48,486 bases of DNA from Tychonema sp. LEGE 07203 (GTDB lineage: Bacteria; Cyanobacteriota; Cyanobacteriia; Cyanobacteriales; Microcoleaceae): the NCBI RefSeq assembly GCF_015207285.1, contig NZ_JADEXD010000032.1, positions 1 through 48,486 on the forward strand, in the 5' to 3' direction. The translations under genes were made by a program, and so were the position numbers. A model generated the notes under the pieces. It was not told the DNA's origin and made no database searches. It saw only the letters and a list, made by a program, of their open reading frames with translations. This document shows positions 4,439 through 43,555 of this stretch, piece after piece (the stretch's first letter is position 1; each line of letters opens with the position of its first letter).

Positions 4439-7400
4439 TTAAATTCCTGGCTCAGCCACCAACTTTTGAACCCCCGCCAGAATTATTTCCAATTCAGCGA
4501 TGATTTTCGCCGCTGCCTCCAAATCCTTTGATTGTGCCAGACGTTCAAGCTCAGCAGCCAGATCGGGCATTAGCCGCACCGCCGCCGTAGCGCTGACACC
4601 TTTAATTTGATGCGCCCTGCGGGCCAGCGTCTCCACATCTCCCGCAGAAATCGCCCCCTTAGCCTCTTCTAAATAAGTGCCAGTATCCGCCACAAAAGCT
4701 TGCAAAATTTCCCGCTCAAAATCTAAATCAGCGCCCGCAATTTCGTGCAAGCGCGCCATATCGACGGCAGATTCTAGATCCGGCGCAGAGTTTTGGAGTT
4801 CCTCGCCCTGAAACTTGGGACTTTCAATTTTTAACTTTACCGACCAATTTTCTAGTACAGATTTTAAGTTGTCGATCGAAATAGGCTTGCTAATATAATC
4901 GTCCATGCCCGCCGCCAGACACTTTTCTCGATCGCCCTTCAAAGCATTTGCCGTCATCGCCACCACCACCGTATGAAGCTGTGGATTCATCGAACCAGCA
5001 GCACCTGCGGCTTCCAGGCGGCGCAATTCCCGCGTCGCTTCGTAACCGTCCAAAACCGGCATCTGACAGTCCATCAACACAATGTCATACTTTTTGATAG
5101 CCAGCATAGATAGCGCCTCAGCACCGTTATTCGCCACATCCGCAGCGCATCCCAAAACTTTGAGTTGATTCAAACCAACTTTTTGATTTATCGGAGTATC
5201 TTCAACTAACAAAATCTTTAAGTTGGCTAACTTCTGGTTGTCAATAACAGAGGCTTGATTTTGCGGGGGATTTGCCAGCGACAGATCGATTGCAGCACCG
5301 GGGGCGATCGCATTCACCAAGCAATCAAACAACCGGTGAGCTTTCACAGGTTTAGTTAAATAGCCGCTAAAACCGATATCTACCAAACGTTTCGCCTCCG
5401 ATATCTGAGTAATGGAAGTCAGCACCACCCAATGCGTCTGCTGCATAGCCTGCTCAGCAATCATCAAGCGTTCCAGACTTCCCGCCACCATTTCCGGTAA
5501 CTGAATATCAACCAAAACAATATCGTAAGGACAATTAACGCTGACAGCTTTGTACAGAGATGCGATCGCCATCCAACCGTTCTCAACTTCATCAACTTCC
5601 ATTCCCCACAAAACAGCCATTTTCAGCAGCACTTTTCGCAATGTCGGCTTATCGCTAGCAACTAACATTTTTCGCCCCGCCAGCACCGTTTCCAAATTCA
5701 CTTGGCACGCTGTCCCCGCAGCAGTTAAATTTTCCTTAACAGCCGGCACAGTAAACCAAAAACTTGAGCCTTTGCCAAACGTGCTTTCCACGCCTATTTG
5801 ACCTCCGAGCAACTCCACCAACTGCTTAGAAATAGCCAGACCCAAACCTGTACCGCCGTATTTTCTCGTCGTAGAAGCATCAACTTGAGTAAAAGATTGA
5901 AACAGCTTTTTTTGGTCTTCTTTCGTAATTCCAATTCCTGTATCTGTGACTTTAAACAGCAGGAACAGCGAGCGATTGCTTCCGAGTTTTGACGGTTGGA
6001 GCTGATCTAAAACTTTCCGCTCGCTGGCTGCCACCAACCCCGGAGGCCTGCCAGTAGAAACCTCAATTACGACTTCTCCTGCTTCGGTGAACTTGATCGC
6101 ATTGTTGATTAAGTTAGTGAGAATTTGCCGCAACCTCGCTGCGTCGCCTCTAATTTGCAGCGGCACGTCGCTGTCAATCAGCGCCACCAATTCTATACCT
6201 TTTTCTTGGGCGGGAGTTGCCAACAAATCCAGCACTTCATCCAGACAGATACTGAGGTCAAATTCGATCGTTTCCAAGCGCATTTCTCCTGCTTCCAGTT
6301 TGGAAAGGTCGAGAATATCATTAATGATCGACAGCAAATTTTGGCTGCTGAGTTTCAGCGTTTGCACAAAGTCTAGCTGTTCGGGAGTGAGATTTGTTTT
6401 CAGCAGCAAATCAGTCATCCCCATCACTCCATTCATCGGAGTGCGGATTTCGTGACTCATATTTGCTAAAAATAGCGACTTCATTCGAGACGCTTCCAGG
6501 GCTGCTTCTCGGGCCTGCTGCGCTTGTTCAAAAAGAGTAGATTGCTGAATGGCGATCGCCAACTGCACGCTCAACCTTCCCAGCAAATCCACCTCAGAAT
6601 CAGTCCAAGCGCGCGGGCCCCTGCACTGGTGAGCAACCAGCAAGCCCCACAATCGATTTTGACGCTTGTCCAAACTCCCGACAGGCAATTCTATTAACGG
6701 AGTTTCCGGCGAATTTTCCGATCTCGGTTCCTGATTTTCATCGCCGATAAAAATTGGTACAACTAAATTAGCCCTTACCTGCACACTTGCCAAAAAATCT
6801 CGGTGGGAGTCGCTCAAATTTGCCGTATAAATATCGGATATTGCTTGAATTTTTCCAGCGCGGTACAGCGATACATAACTTTCTCCAAAAAACGCTTCTT
6901 GAAGTTTTCTGTCCAGCAGCGGCATCCAATCATATCCTACAGATTCCACAACTACAATCGCTGTTTGCTCCGAATCAAAACGATAAATTACCGTGCGGTC
7001 AGTTTCCAGCAACTGCCGCACTTCTTCTACGGCCGTGCTCAGAGTTTGAGTGAGGTTGAGAGACTGGCGGACTCGCTGGGCGATCGCCGAAACCAGCCGT
7101 TCTCGTTCTGCTTGTTCCCGCAGCATTCTCTCAGCCTGCTTGCGTTCGGTGACATCGCGAATTACCGCAGCAAAGCACAGCGGTTCGCTGGTTTGAGGGT
7201 GTTTTACCAAAAAAGCATTCATCACCACATCAATGGGTTTTCCGCTGAGCAAGTGGTGCATTTGACCTTCTCCTTGCCACTGACCCTGACTGATAATTAT
7301 TGGCAAAATCTCTTGACTAAATTCCTGTTTTAAATTTTGACCGATATAATCCCATATTTCTGTATCAAGCACTTCCGAAACATTCTCTAAACCCACCATT

Positions 7401-9598
7401 TTTCGTCCGGCTTCGTTGACAAACAGCGTTTGACCTTCGAGAGTAGCCATACTGATAAAATCGCTGCTATTTTCAATCAGCGATACAAATTTTTGCCGTT
7501 CTTCTTCTCCTTTTTTGCGTTCGGTAATGTCGCGCTTGACGCAGACGTGACAAATTACATCGCCGCTGTTGTTAATCACAGAGGATGCCGCCACGTCGAT
7601 CGCCAGCTTGCGACCTTTTTTGGTACAGTTAGTAATTTCGCCCCGAAAAGTTCCTGTTTTCGCTAAACTTTTGGCAATTGCCGAAAAGTGTTCCCCCGGC
7701 ACCAGGGGTGGCGCTTCTGCTTCTAATTCTGCGTCTGTGTATTCTAGCAGCGATTTGTGGGCGCGATTTTGTTCGAGAAAAAACCCGTCAGCATCGATAA
7801 TGACGATCGCATCGTTGGAGTTTAAAAATATTTCTCGGTAAAGTTTTAGTTTGTCCTCAGCTCGCTTGCGTTCGGTGATATCTCTTTTGACGCTGACGTA
7901 ACAAACCACATCCCCAGCATCGCCCCGAACCGCAAAAGCCGAAACTTCCGCCTCAACAACTCCAGCTTGCAAAGCCTTAACACAGGTTATTTCGCCTCGA
8001 TAACTCCCTGTTTCGCCCAAGCTTTGCAGCACCGAGGCAAATGCCTTTTCTCCCATGTGAGTTGCAGGGGTTTTTCCCCACAATTTCGATGAACTGTAAC
8101 CCAGCAAAGCCGTGTGAGATTGATTTGTTTCTAAATAATAGCCTTGGGGATCTAAAATGGCGATCGCATCGTTAGACTTTAAAAATATTTCTTGATAAAG
8201 TTGCAGTTTTAATTCCGCTTGTTTGCGATCGCTAATATCCGTGAACAAGCCGTAGTAAACAATCTCCCCCGAGGCTTGCATTTCCGGCTGTGCATCTCCT
8301 TGCACCCATTTCAGTTTTCCCGACAAAGTGACAATTCTGCCTTCCCACCGCCAAGGCTGCAAACTTTCAGCAGAAAGCCTCACCGAATTGACAAAATCAT
8401 CTCTATCTTCGGGATGAATCATGTCAACAATGACATTAATCTCCTGCTGAGCTTCCTCTGGCTCTATTTCATACAATTCTCGACAGCCGGCGCTGACAAA
8501 GGAGAACACCATCGAACCGTCTGGATGCAAGTCAACTTGATATACAGTACCCGGTACGCTAGCAGTAATTTTTTGCAATTGGGTTTGGCTTTGATTCCTG
8601 GCTGCATCTGCTGCGGAGTATTCTGCAATTTCCCGCGAAATACCCAAAACCGCAAATATATTGCCCCCGGCATCGCACAGCGGCAGTTTTTGCGTGTCAA
8701 AGACGTGCTGTTTGCCGCCTGCAAAGGCGATTTGCTGGTAGGGATTGCGAACCGTCTCCCCGGCGAGCGCAGCTCGATCGTCCTCGCGGATGCCCCTAAC
8801 CCGGCTGTGGCGATCGCCAAATACTGATGTTTCTAAAAAACCTAATTCAATGTCATCTTTGCCGAGAATTTCATCAACATTTTTTTCTAAATATTTCGCA
8901 AAACTTTGATTGACAAAAATATATCTAAAATTTCGATCCTTTGCATAAACCATGTCCGGCGTAACGTCCATCAAAGCCCGCATTAGCAGTTCTTGATTTT
9001 CCGAATTGAAAGCAAAAATATTTTTACTTTTGCTCTTGAAATCTGGAGTTTCAGCTGCTAATTTAATTAATGATTTAGCACAGATTTGAGCTACAGTCTG
9101 GAGCAAACAAAGGTGTTCAAAATCAAAAGCACTGGCCTGCTCTGCACCGATAAAAAATACTCCCAACAATTCTTGACTTTCATCCGGGTGTGCCGGTGCC
9201 ATCAACACCGACTCAAACTGAGCAATTGGTGGCAAAGCAATGTTGTGCGCCCAGTCCCGATTTCCCGCCAGCCATTCAGCGCCGGCAGCTTGCAACCTTG
9301 CTTTAATTTGGGCTTTGGTGCGAGCAGCTAAGGGGTGTGGCGGTTGTTCGAGGTACAGCTTCTGGTCCGGTAGCGTCAAAAGTGCGTTAGCGAAGCGATC
9401 CGAAGGAAAGCCCTGGAAGAGGATCGTCTCAGCAGGCATCAGGCGATTGATGTGTTCGATACACGCAGACCAAATTTCATCAACAGTCGCAGCAAGTTGT
9501 AATTTCAGACTAAGTTCGTTGAGAACTTGCAGTTCCAAAGTACGCTGGCGGACTTTTGCCTTGAGGCTGGCGGCTAGGATTTGCATAGAGCTCACCAT
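4439..9598 (-). CDS. hybrid sensor histidine kinase, GAF-PAS(5)-GAF-HisKA-HATPase-REC-REC-HPt
   Basis: A 1719-residue phosphorelay sensor without obvious membrane segments, so probably cytoplasmic. Approximate domains: GAF 25-182; five PAS domains 203-320, 336-453, 463-573, 579-690 and 699-813; a phytochrome-type GAF 829-1029; HisKA with SHEIRTPMNGVMGM and the phospho-His near 1047; HATPase to about 1286 (NAIKF, DTGIGI and GGTGLGLAIS boxes). REC1 (1303-1426, phospho-Asp in LVDIQLPEM), REC2 (1456-1586, Asp in LMDCQMPVLDG) and an HPt domain (1609-1716, His in RRAHQIKG) follow. All key phosphorylation residues are present, so a full His-Asp-His relay within one chain is plausible. The second GAF resembles cyanobacteriochromes but has DSH where the bilin-binding Cys-His normally lies. 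PAS3 and PAS4 are recent duplicates. No cognate regulator is adjacent. Confidence 0.95.
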   Translation of the reverse strand: MVSSMQILAASLKAKVRQRTLELQVLNELSLKLQLAATVDEIWSACIEHINRLMPAETILFQGFPSDRFANALLTLPDQKLYLEQPPHPLAARTKAQIKARLQAAGAEWLAGNRDWAHNIALPPIAQFESVLMAPAHPDESQELLGVFFIGAEQASAFDFEHLCLLQTVAQICAKSLIKLAAETPDFKSKSKNIFAFNSENQELLMRALMDVTPDMVYAKDRNFRYIFVNQSFAKYLEKNVDEILGKDDIELGFLETSVFGDRHSRVRGIREDDRAALAGETVRNPYQQIAFAGGKQHVFDTQKLPLCDAGGNIFAVLGISREIAEYSAADAARNQSQTQLQKITASVPGTVYQVDLHPDGSMVFSFVSAGCRELYEIEPEEAQQEINVIVDMIHPEDRDDFVNSVRLSAESLQPWRWEGRIVTLSGKLKWVQGDAQPEMQASGEIVYYGLFTDISDRKQAELKLQLYQEIFLKSNDAIAILDPQGYYLETNQSHTALLGYSSSKLWGKTPATHMGEKAFASVLQSLGETGSYRGEITCVKALQAGVVEAEVSAFAVRGDAGDVVCYVSVKRDITERKRAEDKLKLYREIFLNSNDAIVIIDADGFFLEQNRAHKSLLEYTDAELEAEAPPLVPGEHFSAIAKSLAKTGTFRGEITNCTKKGRKLAIDVAASSVINNSGDVICHVCVKRDITERKKGEEERQKFVSLIENSSDFISMATLEGQTLFVNEAGRKMVGLENVSEVLDTEIWDYIGQNLKQEFSQEILPIIISQGQWQGEGQMHHLLSGKPIDVVMNAFLVKHPQTSEPLCFAAVIRDVTERKQAERMLREQAERERLVSAIAQRVRQSLNLTQTLSTAVEEVRQLLETDRTVIYRFDSEQTAIVVVESVGYDWMPLLDRKLQEAFFGESYVSLYRAGKIQAISDIYTANLSDSHRDFLASVQVRANLVVPIFIGDENQEPRSENSPETPLIELPVGSLDKRQNRLWGLLVAHQCRGPRAWTDSEVDLLGRLSVQLAIAIQQSTLFEQAQQAREAALEASRMKSLFLANMSHEIRTPMNGVMGMTDLLLKTNLTPEQLDFVQTLKLSSQNLLSIINDILDLSKLEAGEMRLETIEFDLSICLDEVLDLLATPAQEKGIELVALIDSDVPLQIRGDAARLRQILTNLINNAIKFTEAGEVVIEVSTGRPPGLVAASERKVLDQLQPSKLGSNRSLFLLFKVTDTGIGITKEDQKKLFQSFTQVDASTTRKYGGTGLGLAISKQLVELLGGQIGVESTFGKGSSFWFTVPAVKENLTAAGTACQVNLETVLAGRKMLVASDKPTLRKVLLKMAVLWGMEVDEVENGWMAIASLYKAVSVNCPYDIVLVDIQLPEMVAGSLERLMIAEQAMQQTHWVVLTSITQISEAKRLVDIGFSGYLTKPVKAHRLFDCLVNAIAPGAAIDLSLANPPQNQASVIDNQKLANLKILLVEDTPINQKVGLNQLKVLGCAADVANNGAEALSMLAIKKYDIVLMDCQMPVLDGYEATRELRRLEAAGAAGSMNPQLHTVVVAMTANALKGDREKCLAAGMDDYISKPISIDNLKSVLENWSVKLKIESPKFQGEELQNSAPDLESAVDMARLHEIAGADLDFEREILQAFVADTGTYLEEAKGAISAGDVETLARRAHQIKGVSATAAVRLMPDLAAELERLAQSKDLEAAAKIIAELEIILAGVQKLVAEPGI
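9380..9426. repeat. in-gene dispersed repeat (copy 1)
   Basis: Inside the histidine kinase gene, AGTGCGTTAGCGAAGC (from 9381) and CCCTGGAAGAGGATCG (9411-9426) match a shorter copy at 14199-14229 in the DUF3086 gene. The match looks like an inserted repeat kept in frame in both genes. Confidence 0.6.
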
Positions 9599-15732: not shown

Positions 15733-16413
15733 ATGGCTAGCTGGATAATTTTAAATGGCACATTGCTAATAGCAGCTTACTTGCTGGGTTCAATTCCGAC
15801 TGGGTACGCCTTGGGGAAATGGATGCTGGGAATTGATATTCGGGAAGTCGGTTCTGGTTCGACTGGCGCGACGAACGTACTCAGGACTTTGGGGAAGTGG
15901 CCGGGGTTGGGAGTGTTGCTGGTTGACGTGCTCAAGGGGGTAAGTGCGATCGTCCTAATTCGCTACATTTACTCTCTTGATTTTACCGCCCAGTTAGCAA
16001 CCGCCGCCGATTTAGAAAATACTGCAACTCTCCTCCCTTGGATGGCAACTTTGGCTGGTTTCTCTGCTATTTTGGGTCACAGCAAATCAATCTGGCTGGG
16101 GTTTACCGGCGGTAAATCTGTGGCTACGAGTTTGGGAGTTTTGCTGGGTTTGTATTGGCCAGTTGGTTTGGGAACTTTCGGAATTTTTGGCATAGTTTTT
16201 GCCCTGTTCCGAATTGTTTCTTTAAGCTCGATTATCGGGGCAATTAGCGTTGCTGGATTGATGTTTGCTTTACATCAACCGCTGGCTTATGTATTGTTTG
16301 GCATTGCGGGCGGCGTATTTGTAATTGTGCGGCACCGCAGCAACATTCAGCGTCTGTTGAACGGTACTGAACCCAGGATTGGAGATAAATTGGAAACATC
16401 CGCTAGCGATTAA
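15733..16413 (+). CDS. plsY: glycerol-3-phosphate acyltransferase PlsY
   Basis: An integral membrane enzyme (226 residues) that transfers an acyl group from acyl-phosphate to glycerol-3-phosphate, the first step of membrane lipid synthesis. The three family motifs are present: GSIPTGYALGKW near the N-terminus, GSGSTGATNVLRTLG at about residues 40-54, and GFTGGKSVATSLGVLLG at about 128-144. About five membrane helices are visible. Length is slightly above the usual 200 because of a longer second loop (DFTAQLATAADLENTATLLP). It closes the mlaE-DUF3119-DUF3086 strand but is separated by a repeat-rich spacer and may have its own promoter. Confidence 0.95.
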   Translation: MASWIILNGTLLIAAYLLGSIPTGYALGKWMLGIDIREVGSGSTGATNVLRTLGKWPGLGVLLVDVLKGVSAIVLIRYIYSLDFTAQLATAADLENTATLLPWMATLAGFSAILGHSKSIWLGFTGGKSVATSLGVLLGLYWPVGLGTFGIFGIVFALFRIVSLSSIIGAISVAGLMFALHQPLAYVLFGIAGGVFVIVRHRSNIQRLLNGTEPRIGDKLETSASD

Positions 16414-16619: not shown

Positions 16620-17411
16620 TTAGAATCCCTGAACTGATAGAATACTGTTTTGGAGTTGAGTAGGCGTTATATATTCAACAAAACCTACTAAATCGCCAGA
16701 ACTCCTGACTTTGATAAGAGTCCCTGAAGTCACAACAGTTGAAGGATTTAAAACATCTGCTGGGGAGACAAGGGGTTTCGCAGCTTTTGAAAAATCAAAA
16801 TCTTGTAGCAGCAGCACATTTGTCAAATTCTCCAAAACTACATCGTTAACAGTCAAACCGTCTGATAATCCAATCCGATCTAAACCGACTTGGAAACGTG
16901 TAACGACATCGGTCTTGTTGATATCCGTAACTCCTGACTCTAGTTGCAGGACGAATAAGGTACTGCCACTGGTTTTAAGCGAAGAAGCACCATAATCCAC
17001 ACTTGCCAAATAGTCTCGACCCAAACCTCCTATCAAAGTATCATTCCCGTTACCGCTGTATAAAATATCATTTCCTCTACCTCCCAATAAAATATCATCT
17101 CCTGCTTGACCGCGAAGCCAATCAGCATCTTGACCACCGCTAAGACAGTCATTTCCCTCGCCTCCCCATAAATCATCTTTCCCTTTTCCCCCCAATAAAG
17201 AATCGTTGCCAAAATATCCTACTAGCGAATCTTCCCCGTCATTGCCAAATATCAAATCGCCGATTGTTGAGCCGAATACTGTATCGTCACCTCCGAGCAT
17301 CCATACTCCCGAAGGGAAATTAGCTGTACTTCGGAACCGTAAACTAGCGTATTCGGATGTATTGTCGCCAATTAATCGGGGTACTCCTGATGGGTCTGTT
17401 TGTAAAGCCAT
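16620..17411 (-). CDS. calcium-binding RTX-repeat protein
   Basis: A 263-residue protein with RTX (hemolysin-type) nonapeptide repeats at about residues 40-130, such as GGEGNDCLSGG and GGRGNDILYSG. These form a Ca2+-binding parallel beta-roll. The C-terminal half (TSGSTLFVLQLESGVTDIN onward) resembles the conserved non-repeat tail of cyanobacterial secreted RTX proteins. No N-terminal signal is present, which fits type I secretion. No secretion genes are nearby. It is transcribed divergently from the first receptor kinase, with 177 bp between starts. Confidence 0.88.
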   Translation of the reverse strand: MALQTDPSGVPRLIGDNTSEYASLRFRSTANFPSGVWMLGGDDTVFGSTIGDLIFGNDGEDSLVGYFGNDSLLGGKGKDDLWGGEGNDCLSGGQDADWLRGQAGDDILLGGRGNDILYSGNGNDTLIGGLGRDYLASVDYGASSLKTSGSTLFVLQLESGVTDINKTDVVTRFQVGLDRIGLSDGLTVNDVVLENLTNVLLLQDFDFSKAAKPLVSPADVLNPSTVVTSGTLIKVRSSGDLVGFVEYITPTQLQNSILSVQGF

Positions 17412-17484
17412 AAAATATTTGTCCCTAAAATTTCGGATGTCAACATGATTAAATAAGCCTCTCTCAAAGTCAATTCATATATTC

Positions 17485-17530
17485 ATAACTTTGAGTTCAT
17501 AAAAGTCATAACTTTGAGTTCGTAAAAGTC
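17485..17530. promoter_or_regulatory. tandem 23-bp direct repeat upstream of receptor kinase 1
   Basis: Two adjacent 23-bp copies of ATAACTTTGAGTTCATAAAA plus GTC (17485-17507 and 17508-17530) differ at one base. They end 58 bp before the kinase start, and a diverged pair occupies the same place before kinase 2. The position suggests an operator, but no known regulator consensus was recognised. Confidence 0.5.
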
Positions 17531-17588
17531 ATATTTGTGGTACGATCGACACCAACGAGTGCGGCGAGTCGAGGGGATAAAACGATTT

Positions 17589-19997
17589 ATGTGTCTGAAT
17601 CCAGGGGATATTCTGCGCGATCGCTACCGAATTATCGATGAACTAGGTGAGGGAGGATTTGCCAGAACCTATACTGCTAAGGATTTGGTCAGCCCCGAAA
17701 ATCCCCTGTGCGTCGTCAAGGAAATTGGATCGCCTCAATCTAGCGATCTGCGGGTGTTGGAGGAAGCACAACAGCAATTTAAAAATGAAGTTAACAGCCT
17801 GAAGCTTCTCGATAAGTGTCCGCACATTCCCGCGTTAATCAATAGCTTTATTGAAAATAAAAAATTTTACTTAATCCAAGAATACATCGAAGGAAATCCG
17901 CTGAACAAAGAAGTCGTTTCTCTCAGGCAGTTTCAGGAGTCAGAAGTTATTGATTTATTGCTGGACATTTTGTCAGTTTTAGATTTCGTCCACTCTCAAG
18001 GTATTATTCACCGCGATATTAAACCGTCAAACTTAATCCGGCGCCAACTTGACGGCAAAATTGTTTTAATTGATTTTGGGGCAGTAAAAGGTATTAGCAA
18101 TTTGGCGATCGAGGGCGGCAAAATAACTCAAACTCGTGCCATTGGTACTGAGGGTTATATGCCGGCAGAACAGTGGAAAAATCAGCCAAGAGTTAACAGC
18201 GATATCTATGCGGTAGGAATCATCGGTATCCAAGCGATCGCAGGCTTAGATATTGAAGACCTTTTTTATGATAAAAAAACTGGCGAACTCGTCTGGCACT
18301 ACTCAACTGACGATCGCCCGATGGTACAAATTAGCGACAAGCTGGAAAAAGTGTTAAATAAGATGGTACGCTACCACTTTAACGATCGCTATCAATCCGC
18401 TGCTGAAGTGTTGCAGGATTTGCGCTCGCTAACAGCGTTGCACTCACCTGCGCCCCATGCACAACAACATCTGCTACCTAAGCCTCAACGCCAATGGAAA
18501 GATAAATTGAGAGTCTGCTTGCCGATCGCGATCGCAGGATTCTTCGGGGTAGCAGCATTTTTAATACACAAAATTTTCACACCTAAAACTTGTCCTTTAA
18601 TCCAGGGAGATGCTGCGAGTTGTGGCGAGGAACTGCTGATAAAAACATCGAGTTCTCTCTTAAAAGAAAGGGGAATAAATAATTTTTTTAAGGAAAATTA
18701 TCAATCAGCTTTTAATTCATTTCAACAATCGTGGAACGAAGAAGAACGCAAAGATCCAGAAACTTTAATTTACATGAATAATGCCCTTTTGAAGGCAAAA
18801 AAAGCTGATTACTACACCCTTGCAGTTGCCGTTCCCATTAGCAACAGCGAAGGAGGTACTGTCAATTCTGATTTGGCTAGAGAAATGTTGCGCGGCATTG
18901 CCCAGGCCCAAACAGAAGTCAACCTAGGACTCTTTAATTCCGATCGCAATAAGGACTTTCCCGGTCAAGGTTTTTTAGCAGGGAAAGCCATTAATGGCAA
19001 GGGTATTAGAGTCATTATCGCTGACGATGCCAATCTGAAAACAGAGGCAAAAGCTAGGGCCTCTTCACTCGTCAAGCAAACCGAGATTTTGGGTGTTGTC
19101 GGTCACTATACTAGCGAGATGACTGTGCATGCAGTCGATATTTATGACAAAAATCGCTTGGTCTTAATTTCGCCGGGGAGTACAACAGAACAATTAACAG
19201 AAAAACGTCGGAACTTTTTCTTTCGCACTGTCCCTAGACATCAAATTACTGCTAAAAACTTCAAGAACTATCTGATTGAAAACGCAGGTTCCAAAAAAGC
19301 GGCGGGTTTATACTGTCCTGAGATTCAAGCTACTTCTTCATTGTGGGAAGAATTCAGAAAACAGTTTAGACAAGCAGGAGGAAATATTGTCAGCATCACT
19401 GAATACGATTTGTGTAAGAAAAATTTTAACGTTGAACTAGCGTTACAAGAAATCGAGCGAACCGAGAAAACAGCGATCGTCTTAAGTACGAGTCATGTCC
19501 CGAATGCAGTCAAAAATGCGATGGCACTTATTAAAGCCAATGGCGATCGCAATTGGGTAGTGGGAACCGGGGGAATCTACAGCCAGAAAACCTTAGAAAC
19601 TGCCTCCCAGTTAAAGTCTTTTGAGAAACTGGTGACATCATCCTCTTGGCATCCTTTAACTGCTCCCAACCGCACCTTTGCCGATAATGCTCGAAAGCTT
19701 TGGGGAGGAAACGTCAACCACCGCACAGCTTTAACCTACGATGCAACTCTGACGCTAATTAAAGCAATAGAAATCCAAGAGCAACCCAGCCGCGAAGGGA
19801 TGCAGAAAACTATTGCTAGTCTGAATTTTAGCGCCACAGGAGCAACCGGAACTATTGAGTTTGATGCAAATGGCGACCGCCAAAATTTTCGACCGGAGTT
19901 AGTGCATATTGTCAAGTGTCAGAAAGAACAATTCGGTGTAGCTTTTGTTCCCGTCAAGTATGCGACGGCCGCAGCGGCGGGTTTAAAGTGCGATTGA
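17589..19997 (+). CDS. receptor-like Ser/Thr kinase fused to periplasmic-binding-protein domain (copy 1)
   Basis: An 802-residue membrane receptor kinase. The Hanks-type kinase domain spans about residues 12-285: glycine loop GEGGFARTY, catalytic Lys44 in CVVKE, catalytic loop HRDIKPSN, DFG in LIDFGAVKG and PAEQW. It looks active. A membrane helix follows at about residues 317-337 (IAIAGFFGVAAFLIHKIF). The outer part has a short helical TPR-like segment (SFQQSWNEEERKDPETLIYM) and a type 1 periplasmic-binding domain of the branched-chain amino acid receptor class. The kinase is cytoplasmic and the ligand domain periplasmic, an inference from topology. Start ATG at 17589 was chosen over the upstream GTG because it matches the third paralogue. 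Ligand and substrates are unknown. Confidence 0.9.
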   Translation: MCLNPGDILRDRYRIIDELGEGGFARTYTAKDLVSPENPLCVVKEIGSPQSSDLRVLEEAQQQFKNEVNSLKLLDKCPHIPALINSFIENKKFYLIQEYIEGNPLNKEVVSLRQFQESEVIDLLLDILSVLDFVHSQGIIHRDIKPSNLIRRQLDGKIVLIDFGAVKGISNLAIEGGKITQTRAIGTEGYMPAEQWKNQPRVNSDIYAVGIIGIQAIAGLDIEDLFYDKKTGELVWHYSTDDRPMVQISDKLEKVLNKMVRYHFNDRYQSAAEVLQDLRSLTALHSPAPHAQQHLLPKPQRQWKDKLRVCLPIAIAGFFGVAAFLIHKIFTPKTCPLIQGDAASCGEELLIKTSSSLLKERGINNFFKENYQSAFNSFQQSWNEEERKDPETLIYMNNALLKAKKADYYTLAVAVPISNSEGGTVNSDLAREMLRGIAQAQTEVNLGLFNSDRNKDFPGQGFLAGKAINGKGIRVIIADDANLKTEAKARASSLVKQTEILGVVGHYTSEMTVHAVDIYDKNRLVLISPGSTTEQLTEKRRNFFFRTVPRHQITAKNFKNYLIENAGSKKAAGLYCPEIQATSSLWEEFRKQFRQAGGNIVSITEYDLCKKNFNVELALQEIERTEKTAIVLSTSHVPNAVKNAMALIKANGDRNWVVGTGGIYSQKTLETASQLKSFEKLVTSSSWHPLTAPNRTFADNARKLWGGNVNHRTALTYDATLTLIKAIEIQEQPSREGMQKTIASLNFSATGATGTIEFDANGDRQNFRPELVHIVKCQKEQFGVAFVPVKYATAAAAGLKCD

Positions 19998-20044
19998 ACT
20001 CGTGATGCTTAAATAAGCCACCCTCAAAGTCAATTCATATATTC

Positions 20045-20090
20045 AGAACTTTGAGTTCATAAAAATCGTAACTTTGAGTTCATAAAAATC
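20045..20090. promoter_or_regulatory. tandem 23-bp direct repeat upstream of receptor kinase 2
   Basis: Two 23-bp units (20045-20067 and 20068-20090) with core AACTTTGAGTTCATAAAAATC lie at the same distance from the start codon as the pair before copy 1. They differ from that pair at a few positions, while the following sequence is nearly identical. Confidence 0.5.
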
Positions 20091-20148
20091 ATATTTGTGG
20101 TACGATCGACACCAACGAGTGCGGCGAGTCGAGGGGATAAAACGATTT

Positions 20149-22548
20149 ATGTGTCTGAATCCAGGGGATATTCTGCGCGATCGCTACCGAATTATCTATG
20201 AACTAGGTGAGGGAGGATTTGCCAGAACCTATACTGCTAAGGATTTGGTCAGCCCCGAAAATCCCCTGTGCGTCGTCAAGGAAATTAGGCCGCATCAATC
20301 TACAGATCCGCGAGCCTTGGAAAGGGCAAAACAGCTATTTGAAAGAGAAGCAAAAACTCTGAAAATTTTAAGTCAGCACCCGCGCATTCCCGCGTTCATC
20401 GAGCATTTTCAAGAAAACGGGCTGTTCTACATCGTGCAAGAATATATTGACGGACATTCCTTACAAAAAGAATTTATTCCCAATCACCGTTGGACTAAAG
20501 AACAGGTAACAGAATTATTACGAGATATCTTAGAAATTCTCAAGTTTGTCCACGAGAACAATGTCATCCACCGCGACATTACACCGTCGAATTTAATCCG
20601 GCGCAACAGCGATGAAAACATTGTTTTAATTGATTTTGGAGCCGTTAAAGAAATTGGCACGGTCGAGATAACTGCATCGGGAAGAACGAAAACCACAACG
20701 ATCGGCACTCCCGGATACAGCGCTCCCGAACAATTAAACGGTCAACCCAGATTATGCAGCGATATTTACTCGGTCGGTCTGATTGCAATTCAATTTTTGA
20801 CGGGGGTGCATCCGGGAGAACTCCCGCAGGATCCAAGGACAGGTGAAAATATCTGGAATTACTCGCTTCCCAATCAACCGATGCTGCACGTTAACAAACG
20901 TTTGGCAAATGTTTTGAACAAAATGGTGCGCTACCACTTTAATCATCGCTATCAATCTGTTGCTAAGGTGTTGCGGGACTTGGATGCGCCGCCTCTGCCG
21001 TGGAAGTGGCTGTTGTTGGCGATCGCACCGATTGCGGTCGCCTTTTCGATCGCGATCGATCGCAACAATATTTTCCCATCAAAAACTGCTTTAGTCTTCA
21101 AAGATGGCTTAAGTGGTGGAGAAGAAATTCTGTTTACAAATTCTAGTTCTTGGCTCAAGAAAAAAGGAGTTGATGAGTTTGCAGGTTCAAATCCGCAGCA
21201 AGCTTTGAAAAACTTCAAACAAGCGTGGCAGAAAGAATACCGCAAAGATCCAGAAACTTTAGTTTACATGAACAATGCTTTTCTGGATGCCAACAATATT
21301 CCTTATTACACAATTGCTGTAGCCCTTCCCATCGGATCGAGAAATCCAGACTCTCCTGCTCACCTTGGCGATCGGGCAAAAGAAGTTCTGCGCGGAGTGG
21401 CTCAAGCGCAAACAGAAGTTAATTTGGGACTGCCAGCTTCTAGGAGCGAGCTGGACTTTCCATATCTTGGTTTTCTACAAGGTAAAGCCATTAATGGCAA
21501 AGGGCTTAAAGTAATTATTGCTGACGATGCGAACGATGAAGAAGAGGCAAAAAACCTAGCAAATTTACTGGTAAATCAACCGGAGATTTTAGCAGTTATC
21601 GGTCATACTAACAGCGAGATGACGATGGCCGCAGTAGATGAGTACGATCGAAATAATTTGGTCTCTATCTCTCCTGGTGCTTCCACAGAAGAACTGACCT
21701 ACGAGCCTAGAAATTTTTTCTTTCGGACTCAATATGCGAGCAGTTTAATAGCTAAAGATTTAGCGGACTACCTGTTTGCAAAAAACCAAAAACAAGCAAC
21801 AATTATCTACAATCCGTCCAATCCATTCAGCGCATCTTTTAAGCAAGAGTTCACCAAGTATTTTGGAAACATCAAGAAGGGAAAAATCGTCAGAATTCGC
21901 GATTTCGATTTATCTAGAAAAGACTTCAACGCCCCAAGAGCAATAAAGGAGATCGAGGAAAAGGGAGAAACTGCGATCGTGTTAGTTCCCGACGCTCAAG
22001 TTACGATATCCCTAAACAACGCTTTTGAAATAGTGAAACTTAACGCCAATTCTCTCGCCGATAACTTCGGGGCGCGTAATTGGATTGTCGGGGCATGGAC
22101 GCTGATGAGGTCAGAAACTTTAGAACTTGCATCAGGGCAACCGAAAAAGTCGTTTAAAAAAATCATCTTATCTGTCGGCTGGCATCCTTTAAACAGTCCC
22201 AACAAAGCATTTCCCCAACAGGCTCGCTCGCTGTGGGGAGGAGAGGTAAATACCCGTACAGCTTCGGCTTACGATGCAGCCCGCGCAATTATAAAAGCCT
22301 TGGAAAGGCAGCCAAATCCCAGCCGCGAAGGAATGCAAAAAACGCTTTCGTCTCCTGATTTTAGCGCCGAGGGAGCAACAGGAACTATTCAGTTTGACTC
22401 GCCGCATAATGGCGATCGCAAAAATCCTCCCAGCGATTTGGTGCATATTGTAGAGTGTCCAAAAGAACAGTTCGGCCTCGCTTTTGTTCCCGTCAAGTAT
22501 CCGACAGCGGCAGCGGCAGGTTTAAAGTGCGATCGATCGGGTTTCTGA
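20149..22548 (+). CDS. receptor-like Ser/Thr kinase fused to periplasmic-binding-protein domain (copy 2)
   Basis: A 799-residue paralogue of the preceding gene with the same order: kinase (about 12-285), membrane helix (about 284-303, WLLLAIAPIAVAFSIAI) and periplasmic-binding domain. Catalytic Lys44 and the DFG motif are kept. The catalytic loop is HRDITPSN, with Thr in place of the usual Lys, a change that occurs in some bacterial kinases but may lower activity. The first 46 residues and the 5' flank are almost identical to copy 1, then identity drops sharply. The receptor part is diverged (VVLP-type ligand pocket residues differ), so a different ligand is likely. The ATG start was chosen by analogy with copy 3. 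Confidence 0.9.
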   Translation: MCLNPGDILRDRYRIIYELGEGGFARTYTAKDLVSPENPLCVVKEIRPHQSTDPRALERAKQLFEREAKTLKILSQHPRIPAFIEHFQENGLFYIVQEYIDGHSLQKEFIPNHRWTKEQVTELLRDILEILKFVHENNVIHRDITPSNLIRRNSDENIVLIDFGAVKEIGTVEITASGRTKTTTIGTPGYSAPEQLNGQPRLCSDIYSVGLIAIQFLTGVHPGELPQDPRTGENIWNYSLPNQPMLHVNKRLANVLNKMVRYHFNHRYQSVAKVLRDLDAPPLPWKWLLLAIAPIAVAFSIAIDRNNIFPSKTALVFKDGLSGGEEILFTNSSSWLKKKGVDEFAGSNPQQALKNFKQAWQKEYRKDPETLVYMNNAFLDANNIPYYTIAVALPIGSRNPDSPAHLGDRAKEVLRGVAQAQTEVNLGLPASRSELDFPYLGFLQGKAINGKGLKVIIADDANDEEEAKNLANLLVNQPEILAVIGHTNSEMTMAAVDEYDRNNLVSISPGASTEELTYEPRNFFFRTQYASSLIAKDLADYLFAKNQKQATIIYNPSNPFSASFKQEFTKYFGNIKKGKIVRIRDFDLSRKDFNAPRAIKEIEEKGETAIVLVPDAQVTISLNNAFEIVKLNANSLADNFGARNWIVGAWTLMRSETLELASGQPKKSFKKIILSVGWHPLNSPNKAFPQQARSLWGGEVNTRTASAYDAARAIIKALERQPNPSREGMQKTLSSPDFSAEGATGTIQFDSPHNGDRKNPPSDLVHIVECPKEQFGLAFVPVKYPTAAAAGLKCDRSGF

Positions 22549-22617
22549 TTGATTCAATTTTCTGGCGTTAGCGGCCCTGGCTCGCGGTACATGAACCGCC
22601 AGAGGGCGACGTTACAT

Positions 22618-22698
22618 TAGACCTCTTGCAAAAATAATTAGGACGGGCTCTTCGGCCCGTCCCATCAATTGATGAAAAGGATTTTTGCAAGAGGTCTA
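22618..22698. mobile_element. short inverted-repeat element (MITE candidate) with TA flanks
   Basis: An 81-bp element with 18-bp perfect terminal inverted repeats (TAGACCTCTTGCAAAAAT and its complement at 22681-22698). An inner hairpin GGACGGGC-TCTTCG-GCCCGTCC lies between. The outermost TA on each side fits a TA target duplication, as made by IS630/Tc1-type transposases. It sits 90 bp upstream of receptor kinase 3. Confidence 0.7.
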
Positions 22699-22788
22699 TA
22701 CTCGTGAGTAAAATATATAAACCCGTTCCCGCCCTTCAGGGTAAAATCAACGTCAACGAGTGCAGCCAGTCGGGGAATCGGAGAATTT

Positions 22789-25230
22789 ATGTGCCTACAG
22801 CCAGGGGATATTCTGCGCGATCGCTACCAAATTATCGGTCAATTAGGTGAGGGAGGTTTTGCCAGAACTTATACAGCTAACGATCGAGACCAACCCAACA
22901 ATTCTCCTTGTGTCGTCAAGGAAATTAGGCCGCCTCAATCTACACTTCCGGAGGTTTGGCAGAGGGCAAACGCTCAATTTGAAATAGAAGCAGCAGCTTT
23001 GCACCGCCTCGGTCAGCGGCACTCGCGCATTCCAAACTTAATAGATAGCTTTGAGTATGGGGGAAAATTTTACTTAATCCAAGAATACATTCCCGGACAG
23101 TCGCTGAGCGAGGAATTAACTACAGGTACGCGATGGACGGAAGAACAAGTAATTGTCTTGTTGCAGGAAATTCTCTCTATTATAGAGTTCGTCCACGAGC
23201 AGGGAATGGTTCACCGAGACATTCATCCCGGCAACTTAATCAGACGTTCGTGCGACAGTTCGATTGTGTTGATAGATTTTGGGGCAGTTAGAGAAATCAG
23301 CACCTTGGGTGTTACTAATTCAGGCGAGATATCAACAACGCAGGCGATCGGCACTCGCGGTTATATGCCAGCCGAACAACTGTTGATGCCCTGGAACCCT
23401 CAGGCCTACAACGATATCTACGCTATCGGGGCGATCGCAGTCCAAGCCCTAACACACGTACATCCTAACAATCTGCCACGAGATCCCCTCAGTTGCGAAC
23501 TCCTATGGCACTACTCGACACCCGATAGAGTGCTCCCGCAGGTTAGCGACAGTTTGAGAACAATTTTAAACACAATGGTACGCTTTCCATACTGCGATCG
23601 CTATCACTCCGCTGCTGATGTTTTGCAGGATTTGATCTCGCTTCCACAGGATGAAAACCTATCGAAACAGCCCAATTCCACAATAAATAATCAAACTGTT
23701 ACACAGACTGTCGGCGTGTCCTCCCAAAAATGGAGAGTCCGACTGTCGATCGCGATCGCCCTCGTTGCGGCCACAGGAGCGAGCGCGATTTATTACAGCA
23801 TTTTCTTATCAAAAACTGGTTTAGTCCTCCCAGATGGTTTAAGTGCTGGAGACAAAATTCTCGTGACAAGTTCTAGTCCTTGGTTAAAGCAAAGGGGAGT
23901 TGAGGAGTTTGCCAAATCAAATTATCAATCTGCTTTTAATTTATTCAAAAAATCATGGAACGAAGAAGACAGCATAGATCCAGAAACTTTAATTTACATG
24001 AACAATGCTTTATTGAAGGCTAAAAATGCCGATCATTACACAATTGCTGTTGCCGTTCCCATCCTGAAAAATCAGGAGGGTTCTGTAGTGAATGCAGATT
24101 CTGCCAAAGAACTTTTGCGCGGCGTAGCCCAAGCCCAAACCGAAGTTAATTTAGGATTAATCCCTGCTACTGAGAGGAATCAAAACTTTCCCGGTCAAAG
24201 CTTTATCGAAGCCAAAACTATTAACTGAAAAGGTCTGAGAGTCATCATTGCTGACGATGCAAATGTCAAAAAAGAGGCAAGAAAAAGAGCCGCTTCACTG
24301 GTTGCACAGCCGGATATTTTAGGGGTAGTAGGTCACTATGCCAGCGAGATGACAGTATCAACAGTAGATATTTATGACCAAAATAACCTGGTGCTGATTT
24401 CTCCGGGAAGCACAACGGAAGAACTCACAGAAAAGCATCGAAAAATTTTCTTTCGCACATCCTATTCGAGTCGGTTTGCTGCTCAAACTTTAGCAAAGTA
24501 TCTGCGGTCAGCAGGTAAAAATCAAGCGACAGTTTTATACAATCCCGGCAGTTCGTCTGGTGCTTATTTTACACAAGCTTTCAAAAGGCAGTTTCAAGAT
24601 GACAAAACAGGAAAAACAGTCAGAATTCGCGAGTTCGATTTATCGAAGAATGAATTCAACGCCCAAACAGCTTTAAATCAAATCCAGCGCACAGGAGAAA
24701 CAGCGATCGTGTTATCTCCAGACGGCCAAATTACCAATTCATTAAATAACGCGATCGCATTAGTTAAAGCCAACCGCGATCGCCATTGGATAGCCGGAAT
24801 TTGGGTACTCTACAAGTGGAGAACTTTAGAAGCAGTATCCCAGTTAAAATCCTTTGAAAAACTAATCGTGTCTGTCCCCTGGCATCCCTTAAGCAGTGTT
24901 AACAAAAAATTTCCTCAACAGGCTCAAAAGTTGTGGGGAGGAACGGTAAATACCGATACAGCCTTAGCTTACGATGCAACTATTGCACTGATTAAGGCAA
25001 TGGAAATGCAGCAGCAACCCAGCCGCGAAGGAATGCAGAAAACGCTTTCTCTTCCCAACTTTATTGTAGAAGGAGGAACAGGAACTATTCAGTTTGGAAA
25101 GAATGGATCTCGCCAAAATCCCCCCAGCGAATTGGTGCATATTGTCAAGTGTCGAAAAGAACAGTTCGGTGTAGCTTTTGTTCCCGTCAAGTATCCGACA
25201 GCAAAAGCGGCAGGTTTAAAGTGCGATTGA
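22789..25230 (+). pseudogene. receptor-like Ser/Thr kinase copy 3, interrupted by in-frame TGA
   Basis: The third paralogue, with a full-length frame of 813 codons except for TGA at 24226-24228. The aligned codon is Gly (GGC) in copies 1 and 2 (KAINGKG), so one GGA-to-TGA change explains it. The frame stays open afterwards to 25230. The upstream part (479 residues) keeps the whole kinase (HRDIHPGN catalytic loop, DFG, PAEQL), the membrane helix (about 317-336) and the start of the receptor domain, so a truncated kinase could still be made. The receptor part downstream begins DDANVKKEARK. Its 5' flank differs from copies 1 and 2 and contains a MITE. A sequencing error is the simple alternative. 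Confidence 0.85.
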
Positions 25231-25243
25231 TGTTCCGGCAGCC

Positions 25244-25341
25244 AGAAACCGGGTTTTTGCGAAAATACTTCGTTGTGGCGAACAGATGCGGCCAAAAACC
25301 CGGTTTCTTTGATTTTACGAGCAGCCAGAAACCGGGTTTTT
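25244..25341. repeat. AGAAACCGGGTTTTT palindromic repeats
   Basis: Three 15-bp arms: 25244-25258 and 25327-25341 in one direction, and 25294-25308 inverted. The first two pair perfectly. This dispersed cyanobacterial repeat also occurs at 40591, 42991-43410 and 45342. It could act as a terminator after receptor kinase 3. Confidence 0.8.
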
Positions 25342-25741: not shown

Positions 25742-26587
25742 TTATTTACCCAATTCTTGAGAACGCAAAGAAGCTGCTTTCACCGCTTCGATCAGCGCAG
25801 ATCGAAAGCCATTACTCTCTAGTTTAGCAATTCCGGCAATAGTTGTGCCGCCGGGACTCGTCACCCGATCTTTTAATTCTGCTGGGTGCATTCCGGTTTC
25901 TTGCAATAGCTTCGCCGTACCGAATACAGTTTGGATTGCTAATTGAGAGGCGATCGCCCGTGGCAGTCCAGCACAAACTCCGCCATCTGTCAAGGCTTCG
26001 ATAAAAATTGCCACATAACCAGGGCCGGAACCGGAAAGCCCAGTCACCGCATCCAGCATACTTTCGGGAACTTCCACGACTTCTCCCACAGCCCCAAAGA
26101 TGCGTTTTACCAATTCTAAATCGGTTGGTTGCACGAGTTTGCCAGGGGCGATCGCGCTCATTCCCGCCCCCACCGTCGCCGGAGTATTCGGCATCACCCG
26201 CAGCACCGATCGCCCCGGAAACGCCGGTTCTAGCTTGCTGAGCGGGACTCCTGCTAAAATCGATACTATCAGCGCTTCCGGCTGGCAATTAGCAGTTTCT
26301 CCATTATTTGCTTGTTGGCGATCGGCTCCCACAGCCAACTCCAAAGCTACCGTATCAAAAACTTGCGGTTTAATCGCCAAAAACAGCACTTCTGTAGCGG
26401 CAGCAACTTCTAGATTGCTGGCTGTTGTTCCAATCCCGTATTTGTCAGTCAAAAACTCGCGGCGCTTTACCCCTGGCTCGCTCACCAATATTTCTGAAGG
26501 CAAATAAACTTTTTGTGCAATTAAGCGGGATAAGAGAGCTTCTCCCATTACCCCGCCGCCGATCGTACCAAATTTTATGTTAGTCAT
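25742..26587 (-). CDS. proC: pyrroline-5-carboxylate reductase
   Basis: A cytoplasmic enzyme (281 residues) that reduces pyrroline-5-carboxylate to proline with NAD(P)H. The Rossmann dinucleotide loop is at the N-terminus (FGTIGGGVMGEALL). The signature VTGLSGSGPGYVAIFIEAL and the C-terminal VTSPGGTTIAGI are complete, and length is normal. It is the last gene of the pipX-pipY-sepF-proC series on the minus strand, separated from sepF by a repeat-filled spacer. Confidence 0.96.
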   Translation of the reverse strand: MTNIKFGTIGGGVMGEALLSRLIAQKVYLPSEILVSEPGVKRREFLTDKYGIGTTASNLEVAAATEVLFLAIKPQVFDTVALELAVGADRQQANNGETANCQPEALIVSILAGVPLSKLEPAFPGRSVLRVMPNTPATVGAGMSAIAPGKLVQPTDLELVKRIFGAVGEVVEVPESMLDAVTGLSGSGPGYVAIFIEALTDGGVCAGLPRAIASQLAIQTVFGTAKLLQETGMHPAELKDRVTSPGGTTIAGIAKLESNGFRSALIEAVKAASLRSQELGK

Positions 26588-40546: not shown

Positions 40547-40987
40547 TCGTGACATCAAATCCGGTTAAACTGATATTTTGCACCTGTGGCAAAAACCGGG
40601 TTTCTGACCGCAAATTTAGCATCACAACCTATATCTTTCGTTCAGAAACCCGGTTTTTAAGAGCTTCCACACCAACGGTGCTCTTCTGTCAGGTCAAACA
40701 GATAAAATTCCCGAGGGGCGGGTTCACCAACAGGGAGCATCTCAAGGAAAGCAGCCCAGCCCAAAATTGGAGTTTTGAGGCAGGGGGCAGGAGGCAGTTC
40801 GGCTTGAGGAAAGAGGAAAAAGGAAAAAGGAAGGAGCCAGAAGAAGTGTTTTTACAAATATGAGATGCTCCCCACCAACATCTTTCATACCAACCAACAA
40901 TACAAGTAAAACCGCCCCGCCCCAACAGAAATGCTCAATCAATCCGACACGAGATAAATTATTAGTGAAAGCGGAGATTACAATTAA
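40547..40987. other. cobQ-ferredoxin spacer
   Basis: A 441-bp spacer with a 17-bp perfect palindrome (40591-40607 and 40642-40658) and a purine-rich stretch (about 40787-40845). No gene is supported, although several overlapping short ORFs exist. Confidence 0.6.
40591..40658 (+). terminator. palindromic repeat, possible cobQ terminator
   Basis: AAAAACCGGGTTTCTGA and its exact complement TCAGAAACCCGGTTTTT form a 17-bp stem with a 34-base loop, ending in T5. It belongs to the GAAACCCGG repeat family, so the terminator role is inferred. Confidence 0.6.
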
Positions 40988-42845: not shown

Positions 42846-43555
42846 AAAACTCACCTATTCCTTTTGATTATTCTACAATTTGTCAGCCGAAATAATTGTT
42901 AAAATATATAAATTTCACCTAAAATATCTCAATTAATTTCAGCTCAAATCCTTTAATCATCTAATTCTGTTAGGAGTTACGCACAAGACTAAAGAAACCG
43001 GGTTTTTTACCCAATTTGTAGGCGAAAATGCAGGATTTTAGTAAAAAAACCCGGTTTTTGTAAAACACCCGGTTTCTGACAGCCGCGATCGAATCTAAAA
43101 TTCGATCGCACTCACACAGCAAAGAAACCGGGTTTTTCAGGAATTTTTGGCTTTGTAGGAAGTATTTTTGTCAAAAACCCGGTTTCTGACAGCCGCGATC
43201 GAATCTAAAATTCGATCGCACTCACGCAGCAAAGAAACCGGGTTTTTCAGGAATTTTTGGTTTTGTAGGAAGTATTTTTGTCAAAAACCCGGTTTCTGAC
43301 AGCGGCGATCGAATCTAAAATTCGATCGCACTCACGCAGCAAAGAAACCGGGTTTTTTAGGAATTTTTGGTTTTGTGGGAAGTATTTTTGTCAAAAACCC
43401 GGTTTCTGCCTACCCTGCGTCCAAAATCTCAAATCTAATTCAAACCTAAAAACTTGGTAATGACTAAATTTAATTAAAATTTGTTAAGATTAACTCGACC
43501 TCAGCGCCGGTATTCCATCCGCCGCTAAACCAGCCCTTCCCCAGTCTCGATAACA
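42846..43555. other. long spacer before the ABC-F gene
   Basis: A 710-bp spacer between divergent genes. Positions 42991-43410 are GAAACCCGG-type repeats including a three-unit 110-bp tandem array. The remaining 145 bp upstream of 43556 is AT-rich and should hold the ABC-F promoter. Confidence 0.7.
42991..43410. repeat. tandem array of 110-bp palindromic units
   Basis: Three units of exactly 110 bp (43081-43190, 43191-43300, 43301-43410) differ at only a few bases. Partial copies stand at 42991-43080. Each unit has the palindrome GCGATCGAAT-CTAAA-ATTCGATCGC and inverted arms GAAACCGGGTTTTT and AAAAACCCGGTTTC. Confidence 0.9.

Follow-up and report, generated by a model that had tools for sequence, protein, structure and literature searches.

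Evidence that one-piece receptor kinases encoded in an accessory array of Tychonema sp. LEGE 07203 have reassorted their kinase and sensor halves

Introduction

Do neighbouring receptors of the same build descend as whole genes, or have their input and output halves followed separate histories? Contig NZ_JADEXD010000032.1 of the cyanobacterium Tychonema sp. LEGE 07203 (assembly GCF_015207285.1) raises this question: within the 48,486 nucleotides that we analysed, referred to here as the window, three adjacent genes (k1, k2 and k3) each join a Ser/Thr kinase, one membrane helix and a periplasmic-binding-protein (PBP) domain. A preliminary description had read them as a tandem triplet of receptor kinases with inverted topology, in which the ligand domains had diverged under a constant architecture. 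In receptor kinases of the PknB/StkP type, an N-terminal kinase is followed by one helix and a C-terminal sensor outside the cell; the inputs sensed by bacterial Ser/Thr receptor kinases are, to our knowledge, largely unknown. Our analysis makes it probable that k1 to k3 belong to an accessory array of one-piece receptor kinases whose halves have been exchanged between paralogues by recombination, and that k3 is such a recombinant and was later interrupted.

Results

Three receptor kinases with the domain order of PknB and StkP

The genes and their parts, with positions counted in the window, are the following.

17589-19997, plus strand: k1, intact receptor kinase of 802 aa, in groups A (sensor) and K-I (kinase); kinase in residues 1-280, a membrane helix at about residues 309-328, and residues 331-802 with stalk plus type-I PBP sensor
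20149-22548, plus strand: k2, intact receptor kinase of 799 aa, in groups B (sensor) and K-II (kinase); kinase in residues 1-280, a membrane helix at about residues 285-304, then stalk plus sensor up to the C-terminal end
22789-25230, plus strand: k3, interrupted receptor kinase (sensor group C, kinase group K-III); kinase, membrane helix and initial sensor portion up to a TGA, remaining sensor in an open frame from 24229
24226-24228, plus strand: in-frame TGA in k3, a sense codon at that site in intact copies

All three run from an N-terminal Ser/Thr kinase through one membrane helix and a short helical stalk to a C-terminal LivJ-like sensor. Pfam assigns Pkinase to each protein (115.8, 117.1 and 100.3 bits for k1, k2 and k3) and Peripla_BP_6 or ANF_receptor to k1, k2 and the second part of k3, with Peripla_BP_6 scores of 102 bits in k1 and 90.5 bits in k2. 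As starts we prefer ATG 17589 for k1 and ATG 20149 for k2 (MCLNPGD, resembling other copies) over TTG codons upstream. In all three proteins the top hydrophobic segment sits between kinase and sensor (peak 1.8–2.2, next best elsewhere 1.2–1.5). The catalytic Lys, the HRD Asp, the Asn and the DFG Asp are present in k1 to k3 and, among 85 receptor kinases, in 79, 82, 83 and 83, respectively, the misses being gaps with the exception of one HRD Asn.

The tandem arrangement on one strand and the domain content of the preliminary description were thus confirmed by Pfam, hydropathy and fold prediction, with the exception of k3, where the TGA splits the gene and leaves the kinase in a first frame and the sensor in a second. 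Judged from sequence alone, the topology gives no sign that both domains lie on one side of the membrane, and the charge flanking the helix favours a cytoplasmic kinase in k1 and k3; sequences and models are best read as membrane receptor kinases whose ligand domain is periplasmic. Since a cytoplasmic kinase at the N-terminus and an outside domain at the C-terminus are the usual PknB/StkP order, the proposed inversion was rejected as a novelty. The solved kinases that match best start with StkP and include PknB. What differs is the outside part, since the PASTA repeats of PknB/StkP are replaced here by the stalk and a type-I PBP domain: Pfam gives no PASTA match in the receptors, and the PASTA-kinase model of NCBIfam scores 113–135 bits against a cut-off of 450.

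Kinase and sensor halves follow different trees

Sensors of k1 to k3 are pairwise 55–61% identical and kinases 54–58%. Divergence of the ligand domains was therefore described correctly; the description had missed that the kinases have diverged equally, because k2 and k3 carry kinases from other lineages. The sensor tree of the genus resolves groups A (k1), B (k2), C (k3) and D (the dispersed copy). On the kinase tree, K-I unites eight B, four C and four A copies, K-II consists of k2 and two relatives, K-III of k3 and two B-type copies at other loci, and K-IV of three A copies, while the 28 D copies remain together.

We compared the two halves by approximately unbiased (AU) tests on 29 rows, comprising 25 array-type copies (7 A, 13 B and 5 C) and 4 of the 28 D copies. 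The kinase data reject sensor groups A (p 0.00107), B (p 3.1e-8) and C (p 5.8e-38) as clades, and the sensor data reject kinase groups K-I (p 1.6e-74) and K-III (p 1.9e-60). As a control, each group forms one branch on its own data, K-IV weakly (81/64).

The conflict is most direct in k3, whose kinase is 82% identical to L070 and 56% to G002_C and whose sensor is 59% identical to L070 and 88% to G002_C. In sliding comparisons, identity of k3 to G002_C changes from 62% to 92% at k1 residue 357 and identity to L070 from 87% to 67% at residue 279; between G002_A and G002_C of one relative it falls from 95% to 69%, likewise at residue 279. For pairs that share one half only by group, the best breakpoint lay at k1 aa 279–378, that is, in linker, helix and stalk, in 15 of 15 pairs tested, with log-likelihood gains of 33–190 compared to at most 14.1 in shuffles. 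Comparative analysis shows the sensors as remaining in three old groups, A, B and C, with the located junctions in linker, membrane helix and stalk.

Synonymous divergence (dS) was computed for the 25 A, B and C copies and 14 D copies, with dS limited to at most 2.5 and codons 1 to 60 excluded. Kinase and sensor dS lay more than 2.8-fold apart in 44 of 109 same-sensor pairs, 35 of 191 different-sensor pairs and 2 of 91 D-copy pairs, and the shift is located at the linker and membrane-helix region. For the two array copies of G019, a single-contig genome, dS is 0.27 between the kinases and 1.14 between the sensors. Unequal evolutionary rates, considered in place of recombination, are rejected by this synonymous divergence.

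Upstream of k3 and in its first codons the DNA is of the native C/A type, so the foreign kinase forms an internal cassette in an otherwise native gene. Comparative analysis shows k3 as a recombinant with a kinase of foreign lineage that was later interrupted, and reassortment of kinase and sensor halves in the array appears well supported by the sequence comparisons.

A probably recent interruption of k3 and an inserted element

The TGA of k3 falls some 130–140 codons into the sensor region, after which the frame stays open for 333 codons to a stop ending at 25230. Past the TGA, the ratio of nonsynonymous to synonymous divergence (dN/dS) is 0.25 and 0.26 against two C-type relatives, similar to 0.31 in the intact C pair; the interruption is thus either recent or due to an error in the sequence or its assembly. 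Upstream of k3 lies a further feature.

22618-22698, plus strand: 81-bp element with 18-bp perfect terminal inverted repeats

Its terminal repeat has 63 matches in the genome (at most one mismatch), often as facing pairs some 60–110 bp apart, and upstream of four genes in three relatives (G013, G019 and G002) the corresponding DNA is continuous without the element. We regard it as a probable miniature inverted-repeat, transposon-like insertion and a member of a miniature transposon-like family.

A separate palindromic repeat, AGAAACCGGGTTTTT, occurs in 14 copies in the window (at most one mismatch, both strands) compared to 0.03 expected by chance, at sites in 25244-25341, 40591-40658 and 42993-43407, the first of these clusters lying just after k3.

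An accessory insert at the plsY-proC locus

The array stands between two conserved genes and beside a divergent one.

15733-16413, plus strand: plsY, conserved left neighbour of the insertion locus
16620-17411, minus strand: gene for an RTX-type calcium-binding repeat protein, divergent to the array
25742-26587, minus strand: proC, conserved right neighbour of the insertion locus

In 30 of 59 genomes searched, our own included, we found matches at E 1e-100 or better, and 26 of the 30 belong to the same genus. The plsY-proC locus, followed over 29 genomes, holds one to three receptors in 11, is empty in 11 (intervals of 233–1528 bp) and is not assignable in 7, where the flanks are split across contigs or were not found. 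Both flanks share one contig in nine of the occupied loci; the locus of G002 is delimited by the RTX gene and proC, and that of G016 is spread over two contigs. Three receptors are present here and in G002, two in G013 and G019, at least one (A-type) in G016, and one, always B-type, in the other six. Counted from the RTX side, the order is A-B-C here, B-A-C in G002, B-A in G019 and B-C in G013. The receptor genes at this locus are an accessory insert. The search for homologous arrays proposed in the preliminary description led to related arrays in other genomes of the group that show the exchange of kinase and sensor.

Within the array, 17445-17744 (plus strand; upstream DNA and 5′ kinase part of k1) is 95% identical to 20005-20304 (plus strand, k2), a 300-bp tract left by either local conversion or duplication. 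Away from the array, the genome holds a fourth intact copy, G000:C309 (54%), and a stand-alone sensor, C252 (38%). Genome matches beyond the four receptors are at most 46% identical to k1, in a survey that included no dedicated search for a second K-III kinase.

Of the 11 occupied loci, 10 show the RTX gene (G016 has a partial match beside plsY, where the contig ends; none is seen in G022). It appears in none of the 11 empty ones, as scored at E 1e-25 over at most 90 candidates per genome, and most of the empty intervals would not have room for it. A role of the RTX protein as a dedicated receptor partner was dropped: the gene is gained and lost with the array, but close homologues occur at other sites in many genomes, and we claim no more than co-inheritance. 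Elsewhere in the window, 4439-9598 (minus strand) encodes a hybrid histidine kinase of 1719 aa with PAS, GAF, HisKA, HATPase, receiver and Hpt domains.

The sensor is predicted to adopt a LivJ-like fold

We modelled the sensor regions of k1 and k2 with AlphaFold2, using an alignment of 54 family members from which k3 was excluded. Both models begin with three helices, continue into a two-lobe fold and reach a mean predicted local distance difference test score of 89.2 (k1) and 88.5 (k2). Their best Foldseek match is 4q6b, a leucine complex (E 2.6e-20 for k1, 9.3e-20 for k2), so that the PBP fold proposed from sequence is borne out by prediction. The neighbours are leucine-binding proteins of the LivJ/LivK type (4q6b, 3td9, 4gnr and others), several of them with a target-normalised template modelling score of at least 0.8; ectodomains of class C G-protein-coupled receptors (GPCRs) and natriuretic-peptide receptors rank after these among the 50 matches listed. 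On reading, the three-helix stalk appears TPR-like; Pfam gives no TPR match in the stalk of the receptors.

The Ser of the GHxxS motif is kept in the sensors. One pocket position, which we take to be where LivJ holds the amine of its ligand, is occupied by Asp in most stand-alone sensors as well as 4gnr and 3td9; groups B, C and D have Trp there, and A has Gly. We had considered the missing acidic residue as proof of a new ligand and withdrew this argument, since 4mlc, whose sequence is the same as that of leucine-bound 4q6b, also has no acid there. In most rows of each group, A (7 rows) carries SH and VGTGGIY, and B, C and D (13, 5 and 28 rows) carry PD and (V/A)GxW. Within each of A, B and C, 175 columns are conserved, 29 of which differ between the groups.

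The same sensor is joined to other effectors

Sensor matches at E 1e-40 or better occur in 147 of 195 genomes sampled from the order, and many of the best matches listed are stand-alone frames of about 480 aa. The fused forms retrieved join the sensor to (i) a kinase, (ii) CHAT, (iii) a caspase, in one case with nSTAND1 and WD40, (iv) a metallophosphoesterase and (v) NB-ARC plus kinase. Our 124-row sensor tree contains 85 kinase-linked, 26 stand-alone (of many more), 10 CHAT-linked, one caspase-linked, one caspase-STAND and one phosphoesterase-linked sensor, counts that reflect chosen rows and are not a census. The effector labels need 12 changes on this tree, and well supported branches force at least five for kinase and at least three for CHAT; the quick sensor and kinase trees warn of long branches, and the forced minimum of at least five is safer than the 12 counted. 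On the kinase tree, the receptor kinases intermix with 13 free kinases of the genome (at least three forced changes; 13 of 14 tried passed the filter and L014 was dropped).

A second set of 78 named loci holds 85 sensor frames, of which 60 are linked to kinase, 18 to CHAT, 4 to caspase and 1 to phosphoesterase and 2 are stand-alone; the CHAT, caspase and phosphoesterase forms were called by similarity to forms already found, the search patterns bias the sample, and frames in overlapping loci may count twice. CHAT-linked sensors come from Moorena, Okeania, Lyngbya and others, the phosphoesterase-linked sensor from Trichodesmium erythraeum and the caspase-linked sensors from four Microcystis records, and one caspase-linked sensor (L099) falls in the same tree as the kinase-linked sensors. 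Individual frames with unusual composition are given by locus and position.

L109 1477-4308, minus strand: NB-ARC/NACHT-like ATPase, Ser/Thr kinase and PBP sensor in a single frame
L125 2319-8024, minus strand: 1902-aa frame with caspase, nSTAND1, WD40 repeats and PBP sensor
L102 1489-4461, minus strand: calcineurin-like phosphoesterase fused to PBP sensor
L223 2543-5515 (Trichodesmium erythraeum): N-terminal part similar to L102

Discussion

Relation to known systems

The architecture itself is already known, and since a protein of kinase plus ANF_receptor was published in 2005, it is not a new headline here. The domain survey in question (PMC1262709) lists a protein of Nostoc sp. PCC 7120 that shares with the array the Ser/Thr kinase, an ANF_receptor domain of the branched-chain amino acid type, the Pfam pair and the cyanobacterial origin; it appears there as a table entry with a short paragraph and is compared here by description; that account mentions no array, half exchange or effector swapping. 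The survey also gives a kinase with a solute-binding domain in Streptomyces and the N-terminal kinase/outside C-terminal sensor order of the PknB/StkP type. According to PMC6069109, kinase and solute-binding protein (SBP) domains occur in single polypeptides ('SBP kinases', with a further 260 in InterPro), and in the split GlnH-GlnX-PknG system aspartate is sensed through a separate membrane protein. These actinobacterial systems (MSMEG_1200/StpK7, Streptomyces, GlnH-GlnX-PknG) resemble the array in coupling an outside solute-binding domain to an inside Ser/Thr kinase. They differ in that the StpK7/MSMEG_1200 model of NCBIfam matches only the kinase part of the receptors (64–69 bits, cut-off 900) and in that GlnH-GlnX-PknG is split, whereas the receptors here are of one piece.

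In cyanobacterial metacaspase/orthocaspase proteins with an ANF-receptor (PMC2853523, PMC7475262), a protease replaces the kinase on the same sensor class, and a 2020 review depicts this combination as a death-signal receptor. Transmembrane and PBP domains have also been noted in conflict systems (PMC7159879), and the main texts of PMC2176072, PMC11863333 and PMC8195603 do not contain the word 'periplasmic'. An anti-phage defence system was considered and rejected: the PD-T4-6 models score 300 and 306 bits on the kinase part only, the sensor being uncovered in all 25 listed of the 31 and 32 matches per protein, and MAD6 reaches 134 and 123 bits against a cut-off of 460. Among 13 other window proteins scanned with Pfam, a subset of the frames, we recognised no defence gene. 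The likeness to animal natriuretic-peptide receptors and class C GPCRs, which also use a type-I PBP ligand domain, is one of fold only; their ligand domain is N-terminal and their outputs are others.

In the literature searched, neither the reassortment of halves nor the longer-scale reuse of one sensor with several effectors is described; for the exchange of kinase and sensor halves, the search covered open-licence PubMed Central literature judged by title.

Weighing the alternatives

Several observations weigh against our interpretation. K-II and K-IV are clades in both halves and hence not in conflict with the sensor tree, and groups A to D and K-I to K-IV were named from the trees themselves. 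Five within-group control pairs gained 37.9, 16.3, 13.3, 11.7 and 5.9 log-likelihood units from a breakpoint, four of them above their own shuffles, which points to smaller conversions inside groups as well, and the k1-k2 breakpoint lies elsewhere, at aa 47. None of 350 D-to-other pairs has a dS jump; we take these as a weak control because distant pairs are near saturation. On topology, k2 has a charge of 0 before and +2 after the helix, which lends no support to an inside kinase, and the paired C-terminal cysteines, which would suit an outside disulphide and are both present in 61 of 124 sensors, say little because the pair is missing in 24 of 26 stand-alone sensors. With k3 broken and an insertion upstream of it, only two of the three genes may be working. 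The genomes of many relatives are drafts or were assembled from metagenomes, among them those of both K-III partners of k3, which come from the bins G015 (7% contamination) and G007.

The combination of kinase and sensor in k3 may accordingly be suspected as an assembly chimaera; its foreign tract is, however, internal, and G019, a single-contig genome, shows the same general pattern. A reading of the proteins as membrane-anchored binding proteins that feed ATP-binding cassette (ABC) importers, with a kinase that regulates uptake and no role as signalling receptors, seems unlikely to us. It would suit a sensor from a substrate-binding-protein family that is common in stand-alone, membrane-anchored versions among the matches listed, as well as the influence on amino acid intake that the 2005 survey proposed for such kinases (PMC1262709), and the window does encode a binding-protein-dependent permease domain, though at 1165-2376, about 15 kb from the array. 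Between plsY and proC, however, no frame of at least 100 aa other than the RTX gene and the receptors resembles a permease or an ABC ATPase, and signalling fits better than transport since caspase, CHAT and phosphoesterase domains also occur fused to this sensor.

Ordinary tandem duplicates that drift apart, with halves differing in rate and no exchange, are a very improbable source of the pattern. The tandem arrangement, the shared architecture and purifying selection on the sensors (dN/dS 0.18–0.58 in the 16 pairs computed) would be expected of them, but synonymous divergence should then be alike along the gene, whereas it differs up to about eight-fold between the halves and in both directions; moreover, the AU tests reject a single history for A, B, C, K-I and K-III, and the kinase lineage of k3 occurs at other loci. 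Equally improbable is a decaying array, left behind by mobile or selfish duplication and now of little function in this strain: k3 is interrupted below an insertion, the insert is missing in 11 of 29 genomes and single stops also occur among the listed copies of G018, G009 and G022, but k1 and k2 are intact with their catalytic residues kept, and selection on k3 past its stop resembles that on the intact C pair, as expected of a recent interruption.

Mechanism and implications

For an accessory array of receptor kinases with exchanged halves, ligand would close the periplasmic lobes of the sensor, stalk and helix would transmit this change through a dimer, and the kinase would then be switched. 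Receptors that share a kinase lineage would then signal different ligands to a single output, and those with another kinase, here k2 and k3, would signal to other outputs. Sensing of nutrients or metabolites, as first suggested for the array, is plausible.

More speculatively, and with far less confidence than in the exchange itself, a common membrane-anchored PBP sensor may serve filamentous cyanobacteria as an exchangeable input cassette, which recombination in linker and helix would repeatedly re-pair with outputs, these being kinase lineages within a genus and, in the longer term, CHAT proteases, caspases and a phosphoesterase. If this holds, the plsY-proC array of the Microcoleus group would provide a combinatorial set of receptors under diversifying use, for instance in discriminating strain-specific metabolites, competitors or death signals.

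The natural recombinants are ready-made swaps, in which one sensor occurs with different kinases and one kinase with different sensors, and make the separability of input and output directly testable, as in engineered receptors. As the sensor is shared by kinases, CHAT proteins and caspase proteases, one ligand search would serve several signalling pathways, and possibly cell-death pathways, in cyanobacteria.

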